In this document: positions 23,815 to 62,358 of the stretch, one piece after another | How positions within the stretch are numbered: the stretch's first letter is position 1 | How the letters are laid out: each line of letters starts with the position of its first letter | NCBI RefSeq assembly: GCF_016863135.1 | Contig: NZ_BOOH01000046.1 | Coordinates: 1 to 64,000 of the forward strand | Source: Planobispora longispora | GTDB lineage: Bacteria; Actinomycetota; Actinomycetes; Streptosporangiales; Streptosporangiaceae | Direction: 5' to 3' | DNA: 64,000 nucleotides | Made by a program: the position numbers and the translations under genes | Notes under the pieces: generated by a model | Database searches by the model: none | What the model was told of the DNA's origin: nothing | Seen by the model: the letters and a program-made list of their open reading frames with translations, nothing else

Positions 23815-24228
23815 ATGAGTGACCGACCGATGCAGGAGCCGACGTTCCTCATCCTCACCGCCCTCGCCGCGGGCCCCCAGCACGGCTACGGAATGATCAC
23901 CGACGTCCAGGAGATCTCCGCCGGCCGGGTACGGCTGCGCGCGGGCACCCTCTACGCCGCCCTGGACCGACTCCAGGCCGAGAACCTCATCGCCGTCGAC
24001 CGGGAGGAGATCGTGGACGGCCGCGTCCGCCGCTACTACCGGCTGACCGAGGAGGGCGGCGCCCGGCTGGCCGCCGAGGCCGAACGCCTGCGCCGGCACG
24101 CCGAGGCCGCCACCGCCCGCCTGCGCGCCCGCCTCGCCGGAGGCGCGCTGTCCTCTCACGCCCTCCGCAACCGGCCGCTCGACGGGAAGACCCCGTTCCG
24201 GCGCGGCCTCGCGGGAGGTGCGGCGTGA
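23815..24228 (+). CDS. PadR-family transcriptional regulator
   Basis: 137 residues with the PadR winged helix: FLILTALAAGPQHGYGMITDVQEIS, then VRLRAGTLYAALDRLQAENLI (recognition helix) and RRYYRLTEEGGARL (wing). A short C-terminal helix covers the dimerisation part, and the last 20 residues look unstructured. It overlaps the next gene (stop TGA with GTGA). This pairing of PadR with a membrane protein is common in actinobacteria and usually forms an autoregulated unit. The inducing signal is not known. Confidence 0.85.
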   Translation: MSDRPMQEPTFLILTALAAGPQHGYGMITDVQEISAGRVRLRAGTLYAALDRLQAENLIAVDREEIVDGRVRRYYRLTEEGGARLAAEAERLRRHAEAATARLRARLAGGALSSHALRNRPLDGKTPFRRGLAGGAA

Positions 24229-24232
24229 GCGA

Positions 24233-24352
24233 GCCGATGGACGGCAGCGGCGCGAACGCGATCGGCGGAGGAGGTCACGTGAGCGAGCGGAGCGCACGGG
24301 CCGATGAACACGGCAGCGACGTGAACACGGCCGGCGGAGGAGGTCACGTGAG
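24233..24352 (+). repeat. In-frame duplicated Shine-Dalgarno/GTG module
   Basis: Copies at 24233-24283 and 24300-24352 end in an identical 20-mer (GGCGGAGGAGG plus TCACGTGAG) at 69-base spacing. Each 20-mer contains a strong ribosome-binding site and a GTG (24279 and 24348), both in the same frame as the earliest GTG at 24225. Confidence 0.75.
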
Positions 24353-50468: not shown

Positions 50469-50553
50469 GCCGCCTCCTCCGCCGGCCGCGTTCGCGACGC
50501 CACCGTGCCCATGGCCCGCTCGCCCCGCTCGCTCACGAAGCCTCCCGCCGTCC

Positions 50554-59003: not shown

Positions 59004-59543
59004 TCACTCCGCGGCCAGCGCGTGCGGCGGATCGTCGTCGATCTCGAAGAAGTCCGGGTACGGGGTGCGCCCGGCCAGCCGCAGCGTACGGGCCAGCCAG
59101 CGGCGCTGCGCCGACCGGGTGACGCCGACCGCGTTGTTGTAGAAACGGCGGGCGTAGACCACCTTGGTCACCGCCGCGTCGAGCTCCTCCAGCAGTTCCG
59201 GGCCCGCCGCCGTCTCGGCCAGCTTCTCCCGGAAACGATCCTGGTCGAGCACCGCCCGCAGGGTGCGCGACAGGTCGCTCTCGGCGTGCTCGCGCTCCTC
59301 CGGACCCGCCGTCCTGGCCTCGTGGGCGCCCGCGGCCAGCACCAGGCTCGTCGCCGGGTCCAGGATCCGGGAGGCGGCCAGCTCCAGGCAGACGGCGGCC
59401 CGCCGTACCAGGGCCGCGTCCAGGGACTCCCGGGCGACCTCCAGGCGGATGTGCATCCGGTCCAGCCGGCCCGCCCGCCAGGAGACGTAGACGGCGGTGA
59501 GCACCACGATCGCCCCCACCACCAAGATCAGCGTGGTGCTCAT
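59004..59543 (-). CDS. LemA-like membrane protein at the end of the PIM operon
   Basis: 179 residues with one N-terminal membrane segment (about 4-21, TLILVVGAIVVLTAVYVS) and a long helical region ending RRFYNNAVGVTRSAQRRWLARTLRLAGRTPYPDFFEID, which resembles LemA-type proteins. It overlaps pimA by ATGA, so it is co-expressed with the phosphatidylinositol mannoside genes. In mycobacteria the gene at this position has, as I recall, an extra NUDIX domain that is missing here. Function unknown. Confidence 0.72.
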   Translation of the reverse strand: MSTTLILVVGAIVVLTAVYVSWRAGRLDRMHIRLEVARESLDAALVRRAAVCLELAASRILDPATSLVLAAGAHEARTAGPEEREHAESDLSRTLRAVLDQDRFREKLAETAAGPELLEELDAAVTKVVYARRFYNNAVGVTRSAQRRWLARTLRLAGRTPYPDFFEIDDDPPHALAAE

Positions 59544-60667
59544 GGCCGGTCGTCCTCCTCGACCCCGCCCACGCTCGCCACGGTCTCGTAGACGCGCACG
59601 ACGTCCCGGGCCACGGTGGACCAGTCGTACTTCCACACGGCGGTACGGGCCTCGTCCGAGAGCTTGGCCCGGCGGGCGGGGTCGTCCAGCAGTCCCGCCG
59701 CGACGGAGGCGAGCGAGCGGGCGTCCCCCGTCTCGAACAGCGCTCCGGCCTGGCCGTCGTCGAGGACCTTGCGGAAGGCGGGGATGTCGCTGGCCAGGAT
59801 CGCCGCCCCGGCGGACATCGCCTCGGTGAGCACGATGCCGAAACTCTCCCCGCCCAGGTTGGGCGCGCAGAAGACGTCGACCGAGTGGTAGGCGCGGGCC
59901 TTGTCCTCCTCGCTGACCATGCCGAGCAGGCCCACCCGGTCGCGGAACTCCGCGGGGACCTTCTCCAGCACCTCCTCGGCGTCGCCCGGACCGGCGATGA
60001 GCAGCCGCAGTCTCGGCCGGACCGGCGCCAGCAGCGAGAACGCCTCCAGCAGCACCGGCAGGCCCTTGCGCGGCTCGTCCATCCGGCCCAGGAAGCCGAT
60101 CACCTCTCCGTCGTCCCATCCGGGCAGCGGCTCGGCCTCGGCGTAACGGCTCACCGTCACCCCGTTCGGGATCAGCACGGCGTCCCCGCCCATGTGCTCG
60201 ACGAGGGTCTTGCGCGCGGCGTCCGACACCGCGATCCGGCCGGTGATCTTCTCCACCACGCTCTGCAGGACCGGCGCCGAGACCGACAGCGCCCGCGAGC
60301 GCTGGTAGGACGCGTGGAAGGTCGCCACGATCGGCCCCCTCGCCGCCCAGCAGGCCAGGACCCCCAGGCTCGGCACGAACGGCTCGTGCACGTGCAGCAC
60401 GTCGAACCGGCCCTCGCGGATCCACCGGCGCACCCGGTTGGCCGACAGGAACCCGAACGCCAGCCGCGCGACCGACCCGTTGTAGGGGACGGGCACCGCG
60501 CGTCCCGCCGGCGTCACGTAGGAGGGCAGCGGCGCGTCCTCGGCGGCCGGCGCGATCACCTCGACCTGGTGGCCGTCCTCGATGAGGGCCTCGGCCAGGT
60601 CGCGGATGTGCGCCTGCACGCCGCCCGGCACGTCCCAGGTGTACGGGCAGACGATGCCGACCCTCAT
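59540..60667 (-). CDS. pimA: Phosphatidyl-myo-inositol mannosyltransferase PimA
   Basis: GT4-family enzyme that adds the first mannose to phosphatidylinositol at the inner face of the membrane, starting PIM synthesis. 375 residues: N-terminal IVCPYTWDVPGGVQAHIRDLAEAL, HVHEPFVPSLG, ATFHASYQRS, and the C-terminal nucleotide-sugar site GRMDEPRKG and PNLGGESFGIVLTEAMSAG. The ATG overlaps the patA stop. Part of pgsA-orf-orf-patA-pimA-lemA-like. Confidence 0.93.
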   Translation of the reverse strand: MRVGIVCPYTWDVPGGVQAHIRDLAEALIEDGHQVEVIAPAAEDAPLPSYVTPAGRAVPVPYNGSVARLAFGFLSANRVRRWIREGRFDVLHVHEPFVPSLGVLACWAARGPIVATFHASYQRSRALSVSAPVLQSVVEKITGRIAVSDAARKTLVEHMGGDAVLIPNGVTVSRYAEAEPLPGWDDGEVIGFLGRMDEPRKGLPVLLEAFSLLAPVRPRLRLLIAGPGDAEEVLEKVPAEFRDRVGLLGMVSEEDKARAYHSVDVFCAPNLGGESFGIVLTEAMSAGAAILASDIPAFRKVLDDGQAGALFETGDARSLASVAAGLLDDPARRAKLSDEARTAVWKYDWSTVARDVVRVYETVASVGGVEEDDRP

Positions 60668-61593
60668 CGCTCCTTCACCGGCCGCGGCTCCAGGTCCTCC
60701 AGCCAGAGGCGCTGGAGCATGTGCCAGTCCTCGGGGTGCTCGGTGATGCCCTTCTCGAAGGCGACGGCCAGGCTCTGCATGACGGTGGCCGTCTTCTCCT
60801 GGCGGGTGCCCTCGGCGGGCACCTCGATCTCCTCGGCGATGTCCAGGCCCCAGTCACGGCCCCTGAAGTACGGCAACGCCGGCAGCAGCGCGGCCCCGGT
60901 GTGCACCGCCAGCAGCCCCGGTCCCGCCGGCATGCGGGTGGCGGCGCCGAAGAACTGGACCTCGATCCCCTTGGCGGTCAGGTCGCGCTCGGCGGGCAGG
61001 CAGACCGCCCGGCCCGCCCGCAGCCGCTGGGCCAGCGTGCCGAAGGTGTTGCCCTCGCCGCCGGTCAGCGGCAGCACCTCCATGCCCAGCCCCTCGCGGA
61101 AGGCGGTGTAGCGGCGAAACAGCGACTCGGGCCGGAGCCGTTCGGCGACGGTCGTGAACGGCATCCCCGAGGCGCCGATGAGCCAGGCGCCCGCCGCGTC
61201 CCAGTTGCCCATGTGCGGCAGGGCGAGCACCACGCCCCGCCCGTTGGCCAGGTTCTCCATGATCCGCTCCGCACCGGTGAGGCGGGTGCGGGCGACGACC
61301 TCCTCCCGGGGGATGGAGGGCAGCCGGAAGACCTCGTGGAAGTAACGGAAGTAGGAGCGCATGCCCGCGCGGCTCAGCTCCCGGATCGCCGGGTCGCCGG
61401 GCGAGGCGCCCTTGACCCTGGCGAGGTTGGCCTCCAGCCGGAGCACCGACTTGCCCCGCCGTTTCCACAACCGGTCGGCGGCGGCGTCGAAGGCCCGGGC
61501 GGTGAGGCGCTCGGGGAGGTGGGGCACGGCCGCCCAGCCGAGGCCGAACCCGGCCGCGACGAGGCGGTCCTGCAGAGATGGCTTGTCGGTCAT
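60664..61593 (-). CDS. PIM acyltransferase (PatA-like)
   Basis: Predicted to acylate phosphatidylinositol mannoside, in the lysophospholipid/LpxL-like acyltransferase family. 309 residues with the family motif as LPHMGNWD (His to Asp at about 127-132) and AVCLPAERDLTAKG and GIEVQFFGAATRMPAGP further on. Peripheral membrane enzyme. Its ATG at 61593 overlaps the stop of the second small ORF. Identity is inferred from family motifs and the place between pgsA and pimA. Confidence 0.88.
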   Translation of the reverse strand: MTDKPSLQDRLVAAGFGLGWAAVPHLPERLTARAFDAAADRLWKRRGKSVLRLEANLARVKGASPGDPAIRELSRAGMRSYFRYFHEVFRLPSIPREEVVARTRLTGAERIMENLANGRGVVLALPHMGNWDAAGAWLIGASGMPFTTVAERLRPESLFRRYTAFREGLGMEVLPLTGGEGNTFGTLAQRLRAGRAVCLPAERDLTAKGIEVQFFGAATRMPAGPGLLAVHTGAALLPALPYFRGRDWGLDIAEEIEVPAEGTRQEKTATVMQSLAVAFEKGITEHPEDWHMLQRLWLEDLEPRPVKER

Positions 61594-61661
61594 GCGTCCT
61601 CCTCCGTCGGCCGCCTGACCAAGGTGCTGTGTCCATTGATGACCTCGACAGGCTCGGTCAT
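61590..61661 (-). CDS. Tandem small ORF 2 (23 codons) before patA
   Basis: ATG-initiated ORF reading MTEPVEV...HSTL...TEEDA, 23 residues. Its start overlaps the stop of small ORF 1 as ATGA, and its stop overlaps the patA ATG in the same way. The last codons (encoding TEED) form a GGAGGAGGA ribosome-binding site for patA. No known domain. It may be a real peptide or a translational bridge produced by duplication of a start region. Confidence 0.5.
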   Translation of the reverse strand: MTEPVEVINGHSTLVRRPTEEDA

Positions 61662-61726
61662 GAGTCCTCCTCCGTCGCTCGCCCGCCCAAGGTGCTGTGT
61701 CTGCCGACGATCTCGACAGGCTCGGT
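61591..61726. repeat. 68-bp tandem duplication between pgsA and patA
   Basis: Copies at 61591-61658 and 61659-61726 are identical at about 57 of 68 positions (84% by hand count). Each holds a start codon region, a 23-codon ORF and, at its end, a GGAGGAGGA site for the next start. The period is not a multiple of three, yet both ORFs remain open through ATGA overlaps. Confidence 0.8.
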
Positions 61727-61729
61727 CAT
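61658..61729 (-). CDS. Tandem small ORF 1 (23 codons) after pgsA
   Basis: ATG-initiated ORF reading MTEPVEI...HSTL...TEEDS, 23 residues. It shares about 14 of 23 positions with ORF 2, including identical MTEPVE, HSTL and TEED parts. Its ATG overlaps the pgsA stop (ATGA). The substitutions between copies leave both frames open. Not assigned to any family. Confidence 0.5.
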   Translation of the reverse strand: MTEPVEIVGRHSTLGGRATEEDS

Positions 61730-62358
61730 GGCTCTCCCGGTCGGCGGAGGGTCCGGGGCGGGACGGAGGAGGTCTGACGGTGGACGTGCAGCAGACGCTG
61801 GCCGACCGTGACCGCGCTGGCGGCGGCGAGCAGCCAGAGCCCGGCGGGCAGGATGTACGGGACGCCGAGGCCGGACAGGCCGGTCGCGACCAGGCCCACC
61901 ACCAACCGTTCGGGCCGCTCGGCGAGGCCGACGTCACAGGTCAGCCCCAGCCCCTCGGCCCTGGCCTTGACGTAGGACACCAGCGCCCCCGAGACGAGAC
62001 AGAACAGCGCGACCCCGGCCAGAACCCGCTCCTCACTCACGATAAACCAGAGCACGAGGCCCGAGAAGATCGCGGCGTCGCCCACCCGGTCGAGCGTCGA
62101 GTCGAGGAAGGCCCCCCAGGTGCTTCCCTCTCCGGTCATCCTGGCCATGACCCCGTCGAGGAGATCCGCCAGCACGAAGAAAGTGATCACCATCGTGCCC
62201 GCGAACAGCTGACCCCGGGGATAGAAGAACAGAGCCGCGGCGGCGGTGCCGAGCGTGCCGGCCGCCGTGACCGCGTTGGGACCGATCCCCCGGCTGACCA
62301 GCACTCTGCCCAGGGGGGTCAGGATCCGGGTGACGGCGGGGCGCAGAAGTTTCAGCAT
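61726..62358 (-). CDS. CDP-alcohol phosphatidyltransferase (phosphatidylinositol-phosphate synthase type)
   Basis: Makes the phosphoinositide precursor of PIMs from CDP-diacylglycerol and inositol (or inositol phosphate). 210 residues with about six membrane helices. The family signature D-G-x2-A-R-x8-G-x3-D-x3-D is complete (Asp 68, Gly 69, Ala 72, Arg 73, Gly 82, Asp 86, Asp 90). I start it at the ATG at 62358 (MLKLLRPAVTRILTPLG); longer frames upstream are not family-like. First gene of the PIM operon. The place beside patA and pimA is what favours inositol over glycerol phosphate as acceptor. Confidence 0.88.
   Translation of the reverse strand: MLKLLRPAVTRILTPLGRVLVSRGIGPNAVTAAGTLGTAAAALFFYPRGQLFAGTMVITFFVLADLLDGVMARMTGEGSTWGAFLDSTLDRVGDAAIFSGLVLWFIVSEERVLAGVALFCLVSGALVSYVKARAEGLGLTCDVGLAERPERLVVGLVATGLSGLGVPYILPAGLWLLAAASAVTVGQRLLHVHRQTSSVPPRTLRRPGEP

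Follow-up and report, generated by a model that had tools for sequence, protein, structure and literature searches.

Two tandem 68-bp units join pgsA to patA

Why should two similar 23-codon open reading frames (ORFs) stand between pgsA and patA in the PIM operon of Planobispora longispora, and what would they do there? The window analyzed here is the whole stretch of 64,000 nucleotides at the start of contig NZ_BOOH01000046.1. The initial annotation of this DNA had offered two answers, that the ORFs encode a new pair of small proteins of PIM metabolism or that they form a duplicated initiation cassette setting the level of PatA, and had known of no described counterpart.

On the minus strand, positions 61729-61594 hold two 68-bp units that run head to tail from a pgsA-like gene (61726..62358, the start at 62358 being the one chosen) to a patA-like acyltransferase gene (60664..61593), downstream of which lies a pimA-like glycosyltransferase gene (59540..60667). 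These PgsA, PatA, and PimA-like identities fit Pfam matches to CDP-OH_P_transf (on a fragment), Lip_A_acyltrans (E 2.2e-52), and glycosyltransferase families, respectively. Both copy 1 (61662..61729, minus strand) and copy 2 (61594..61661, minus strand) are 68 bp long and start with ATGACC, and both match the type A profile described below, with E values of 5.3e-17 and 1.0e-19, each copy being among the rows from which that profile was built. The two are identical at 57 of 68 positions (84%), leaving 11 differences, and the array scored 213 in Tandem Repeats Finder, at the top of the 20 rows for the window. Each copy carries a candidate coupling ORF of 23 codons, ORF1 (61658..61729, minus strand; MTEPVEIVGRHSTLGGRATEEDS) and ORF2 (61590..61661, minus strand; MTEPVEVINGHSTLVRRPTEEDA), the latter appearing in the ORF list as the 3' part of a longer ORF in the same frame. 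Three ATGA overlaps, at 61729-61726 (pgsA/ORF1), 61661-61658 (ORF1/ORF2), and 61593-61590 (ORF2/patA), connect the four frames, and the 3' end of both copies is GGAGGAGGAC plus two bases, followed by the next ATG. A search of Rfam with positions 61300-62000 gave no match up to an E value of 1.

The tandem ORF pair and its three overlaps are as the initial annotation had described them. It had also been struck that both copies stay open although their period is not a multiple of three; this holds true, but it is a property of the element itself, because the tiling of 23-codon ORFs through ATGA requires a 68-nt period, 72 minus 4. The overlap between pgsA and ORF1, while present, looks like a derived or secondary state, because in the four relatives that were read out (P. 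siamensis, P. takensis, one Planomonospora, and one Streptosporangium; P. rosea is not one of them) pgsA ends 15 nt sooner. That stop is missing from the window (61726-61745, minus strand) and from P. rosea, where pgsA continues as far as the TGA in the ATGA of the unit and gains a few residues.

The nearest named relatives of this PatA are those of Planobispora (94-89% identity). The initial annotation had reasoned that the peptides would not be functional if close relatives had no ORF at this junction, and the relatives give a divided picture. Among 80 PatA loci from named genomes, on 79 contigs (L067 and L068 are from one contig), there is one open copy each in P. rosea, P. siamensis, and P. 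takensis, compared with two in the window, but a profile scan found no unit at the pgsA/patA junction in the other 77 of the 80.

The units belong to a dispersed repeat with two sister types

When the 147-bp array was used as a DNA query, it matched five other places in the P. longispora genome (six in all), each of the five flanked on both sides by open frames that share one direction. The match in L006 led to a sister repeat, type B, which is 68 bp long, begins GTGAGCGAGCGGAGCGAGCGA, and is similar at its 3' end to the repeat at patA, type A. Profile building used only the inner 64 nt of units, without the flanking DTGA. In the P. longispora genome the type A profile gave 8 strong matches, and 11 at E ≤ 1e-3, and the type B profile gave about 20, and 21 at E ≤ 1e-3; 8 type A and 10 type B matches are profile-building rows. 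Counted by eye, 18 of 32 own-genome matches have DTGA at both exact edges; the others include many units of variant length and at least one match, C21:45872, that seems to be due to chance.

Beyond P. longispora, type A was found in 32 of 120 genomes of the family at E ≤ 1e-4 and type B in 10 of 120 at E ≤ 1e-7. Across a sample of the class (394 genomes), each model matched 8 genomes at E ≤ 1e-5, all of them Streptosporangiaceae except one for each model, the large model searches having stricter filters with which weak matches are lost. A pattern search of the class sample found 11 of the 394 genomes, all Streptosporangiaceae. It also showed, in another Streptosporangiaceae genus, a 77-bp form of the unit, which in one genome stands as two identical tandem copies flanked by ATGA (L319, 1423-1576).

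The window itself holds further type B units. One, of 68 bp, lies at 50469..50536 (minus strand) between genes that, from their translated text, we take to be ruvA-like and ruvB-like; the stop of the ruvA-like frame is 17 nt upstream of the unit, within an ATGA, and the frame opened by the ATG of this ATGA continues in phase into the unit. Two degenerate units of 54 and 69 bp, both multiples of three, lie at 24225..24347 (plus strand) in frame with the downstream gene, which follows what is presumably a PadR-like regulator; together they form a 41-residue in-frame N-terminal extension of that gene, a possible annotation trap. In L146, at about position 1560, the gene after a type B unit begins VSERSGAA, as judged by eye, as if a remnant of the element had joined the protein. 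Three genomes of one genus (L165, L166, and L175) carry a type A unit at what is apparently one junction, which is useful for insertion dating.

Units are bounded by DTGA and keep a reading frame

To define edges and lengths, nhmmer was run over 283 sequences (1.06 Mb, comprising the window and loci of which most had been chosen for a unit or PatA match), and the hit set consisted of 116 nonredundant matches of at least 30 bits, 26 of them profile-building units. DTGA stands exactly at the 5' edge in 96 of the 116 and exactly at the 3' edge in 105 (75 of 90 and 82 of 90 when the building units are excluded), and 9 of the 116 are without DTGA on one side. At other offsets within 12 nt the motif was present in 0 to 4 of the 116 matches, except at +4 (10 and 7) and at +9 (14, at the 5' edge, representing a 59-bp variant). 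The 107 units with DTGA on both sides are mostly 68 bp long (78 units), the remainder measuring 59 (11), 69 (7), 71 (5), 60 (2), 66 (2), 57 (1), and 83 bp (1).

Length follows a phase rule. Among these 107 units, length is 2 mod 3 in 95, whose ORF ends on the overlap, 0 mod 3 in 12, which are read into the next gene, and 1 mod 3 in none (71, 10, and 0, respectively, among the 81 units left without building rows); the unit rows are related to one another, and such counts, including the 12 of 12, do not represent independent events. No premature in-frame stop occurs in any of the 107. When the same changes were placed at random in a simulation, in-frame stops were expected in 3.3 of 46 type A units and 4.2 of 28 type B units, and because the simulated range includes 0, the absence of such stops is by itself weak evidence.

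The surroundings of the units are those of genes within operons. GGAGG lies 4 nt upstream of the terminal start in 96 of 112 units. A frame of at least 60 codons ends on the 5' DTGA in 79 of 107 units (15 to 59 codons in 11, fewer in 17), and one of at least 60 codons starts on the 3' DTGA in 85 of 107 (15 to 59 codons in 18, fewer in 4); a flanking frame of 15 to 59 codons is often a neighboring unit. Since 17 of the 107 units have no upstream frame of at least 15 codons ending on the DTGA, some insertions are not at stop/start overlaps. As judged by GC3, both flanks are coding-like in 47 of 107 units, compared with 3.2% of 748 control DTGA sites on the same strand and 0.7% of 1616 on the opposite strand. 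This coding signal is weaker upstream (62 of 107) than downstream (84 of 107). It is the upstream and joint figures that carry weight, because 62% of the same-strand controls also have a coding-like downstream frame.

Empty sites, filled sites, and tandem arrays

An empty site is found in the window itself: the ATGA at 59540..59543 (minus strand), between pimA and the next gene, reads GGACGACCGGCC-ATGAGCACCACG, and P. rosea (L026) has exactly one 68-bp type B unit in the same place. When the joined flanks of 16 own-genome sites were used as queries against 14 relatives, single alignments spanned the join at several sites. The join was gapless, as in an empty allele, for C57 and C52 in G112, for C1 in G044, and for C17a and C19 in both G044 and G087; C17b showed no gap at the start codon in G044 and G087 and a 6-nt difference just after it. 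For patA in G005 there was a 1-nt gap slightly before the join, and gaps near the join were seen for C16, C46b, and, in G003, C57 and C1. In the 12-nt gap for C1 in G003 (L293), the bases that follow ATGACC resemble the start of a type A unit, possibly a truncated copy inside the gene start. Identical patA units link G044, G087, and G112 to P. siamensis, P. takensis, and P. rosea.

Copy number varies between species. The patA junction has one or two units, and the junction between genes that, from their protein text, we take to be uvrC-like and rapZ-like has from one to at least seven. P. longispora carries one unit at the latter site, and G058 carries at least seven complete or partial 68-bp tandem units there (L262, 691-1245, minus strand), nearly identical and beside a run of N. 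This array is a possible strain-typing locus.

The two bases after the terminal DTGA, where a gene follows, differ between the types: type A has CC in 33 of 44 cases and G[CT] in 4, type B has CC in 0 of 41 and G[CT] in 40. Compared by eye, the empty and filled hexamers differ at five sites (C57, C1, C17a, C17b, and pimA/next gene), and the filled hexamer is that of the element's type in 5 of 5. At C52, C19, and C16 the hexamer is the same in empty and filled alleles, and there are exceptions to the rule: the ruvB site matches in part, and P. takensis patA, with ATGAGC after a type A unit, does not match. We take these few sites as a sign that the terminal DTGA may arrive with the element. A possible but rather doubtful extension would be that each end of the element bears the coupling hexamer, which is thereby written into the target, insertion being site specific and relying on a short core, common to element and target, that doubles as the start codon. 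If this is true, the site of recombination would be the site of translational restart, and mobility and harmlessness would both stem from one motif.

Overall, it appears likely that ORF1 and ORF2 are tandem copies of a dispersed, nonpalindromic 68-bp element that inserts at DTGA on the start codons of operon genes, in most cases at a DTGA on which the upstream frame also ends, and that would act through ribosome coupling; the sequences themselves show its dispersal and tandem copies, the DTGA at its edges, its direction, its open frame and phase rule, and its empty and filled sites. A ribosome ending the upstream gene would restart on the ATG or GTG of the unit, read 23 codons, and halt at the TGA that overlaps the next start, and its restart at the next gene would be aided by the GGAGG four bases upstream. 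With ribosomes restarting first on the unit and then on the gene behind it, an insertion would do little harm, and an element that brings its own translational coupling may thus be tolerated within operons. Ordinary slippage or unequal exchange could then multiply it in tandem. Translation of patA is probably still possible despite the two inserted units.

The duplicated initiation cassette of the initial annotation comes close to this reading, in that the units bring a start codon and a short ORF, in most cases together with GGAGG at 4 nt from the next start and a stop overlapping it. The stronger proposal that the copies at patA were recruited to tune the level of PatA, and that their number matters to PIM synthesis, seems to us unlikely. 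It would account for the GGAGG at 4 nt in each copy and for the unit at patA in the window and in three other Planobispora loci, and tandem repeat length was reported to vary with mRNA level at a mycobacterial locus, but insertion and duplication at many other junctions are what would be expected without any role specific to PatA.

Folding and selection

An alternative is a REP/MITE-like element, mobilized by a standard transposase through a hairpin or terminal inverted repeats. The units are dispersed and short and have an apparent 4-bp duplication (DTGA) at both ends, and RNAalifold, applied to 12 type A units, proposed 15 pairs, 5 of which are preserved by changes on both sides. On the other hand, there is no inverted repeat of at least 12 nt inside the unit, five units fold about like their shuffles (z from -1.11 to 0.82), and the covariation term of the consensus, at +0.29, gives no support, all of which makes such an element improbable here.

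In favor of two functional small proteins serving PIM synthesis, each copy has an open frame, and one open copy each has been retained at three other Planobispora loci. For type B, pN/pS in the unit's own frame is 0.60, versus 0.70 and 0.90 in the wrong frames (28 units), a weak lean to its own frame. For type A, however, pN/pS is 0.85, no lower than the 0.66 and 0.74 of the two wrong frames (46 units), and the mean entropy of the 46 distinct units at codon positions 1, 2, and 3 is 0.71, 0.71, and 0.48; no clear purifying selection on the peptide emerges. In line with this, 7 of the 11 differences between copy 1 and copy 2 fall at first codon positions, the 23-codon peptides have no match in Pfam up to an E value of 0.1, and a similar peptide is encoded between other gene pairs throughout the genome. 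We therefore regard a small-protein pair of PIM metabolism, as the initial annotation had suggested, as highly improbable. Since lengths are never 1 mod 3, no premature stop occurs, and purifying selection is not clear, what is kept seems to be the passage of the ribosome through the unit rather than the peptide. A purely local duplication of a native patA leader, with no mobile element, has next to no likelihood and was rejected, since the two copies are indeed tandem and local but the unit is dispersed through the genome, with homologous units at many other loci, and the patA junctions of other genera are empty.

Comparison with known systems

REP/BIME and MITE elements are short and dispersed and have no room inside for a transposase gene. 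The unit is like them in all three respects; it differs in having no palindrome or inverted termini of at least 12 nt and in lying at gene starts in one direction with its frame kept open. Upstream ORFs and bicistronic leaders resemble the unit in that a short ORF delivers the ribosome to a coupled next gene, but the units form a family scattered over many loci, with empty sites, and are not the leader of one gene.

Mycobacterial interspersed repetitive units (MIRUs) were reportedly described by Supply et al. in 1997, with DTGA coupling sites as their insertion sites. They are not known to have dyad symmetry. Their main use is as typing markers for the tuberculosis complex, and to our knowledge the mechanism of their movement is unsolved. 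According to a 2025 review, MIRUs appear mobile, insert at start codons, and have an ORF of their own coupled to the gene at -4 nt, with a likely minimal impact. Other sources give them a length of 40-100 bp and 41 places in H37Rv and describe the senX3-regX3 MIRUs as tandem arrays of 77-bp and 53-bp units. The view that the Planobispora ORFs have no described counterpart was thus wrong in kind, since MIRUs are described in the same terms.

The likeness extends to many features. Like MIRUs, the Planobispora-type unit is a short repeat dispersed at many gene junctions and runs in the same direction as the adjacent genes; its small ORF overlaps its neighbors by 4 nt in 95 of 107 units, the other 12 reading through in frame instead; it inserts at start codons with DTGA, leaving empty and filled alleles; it forms tandem arrays whose copy number varies between species; and it contains no inverted repeat of at least 12 nt and folds ordinarily (five units). 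The MIRU lengths of 77 and 53 bp are also 2 mod 3. Compared in architecture, from descriptions rather than sequence, the unit would work like a MIRU. It differs in its host, Streptosporangiaceae and not Mycobacterium; in its length, the main unit being 68 bp (also 59, 69, and 71 bp, and 77 bp in another genus of the family); and in its two sister types, with downstream bases that match the type. The published diagnostic MIRU primer pattern matched 0 of 396 genomes of the genus taken to be Mycobacterium, and our unit models and pattern had no match in the family of that genus within class samples of 394 genomes. A literature search on Streptosporangiaceae showed no title on such repeats among those listed, a search for "MIRU-like" returned one title, on Trichodesmium, and by term look-up the words MIRU, interspersed, and small ORF are absent from the main text of two P. 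rosea papers.

We read the units as a MIRU-like element family of Streptosporangiaceae, outside the mycobacteria, and on this comparison of architecture they would be a second family of the MIRU kind, in other actinomycetes. The units explain short ORFs and, where their length is 0 mod 3, possible N-terminal extensions that could mislead the annotation of genes in this family. Their empty sites are clean, their two sister types differ in the neighboring bases, and some of their tandem copies are identical, which makes the rules of insertion and translation testable both by comparison and in laboratory strains.
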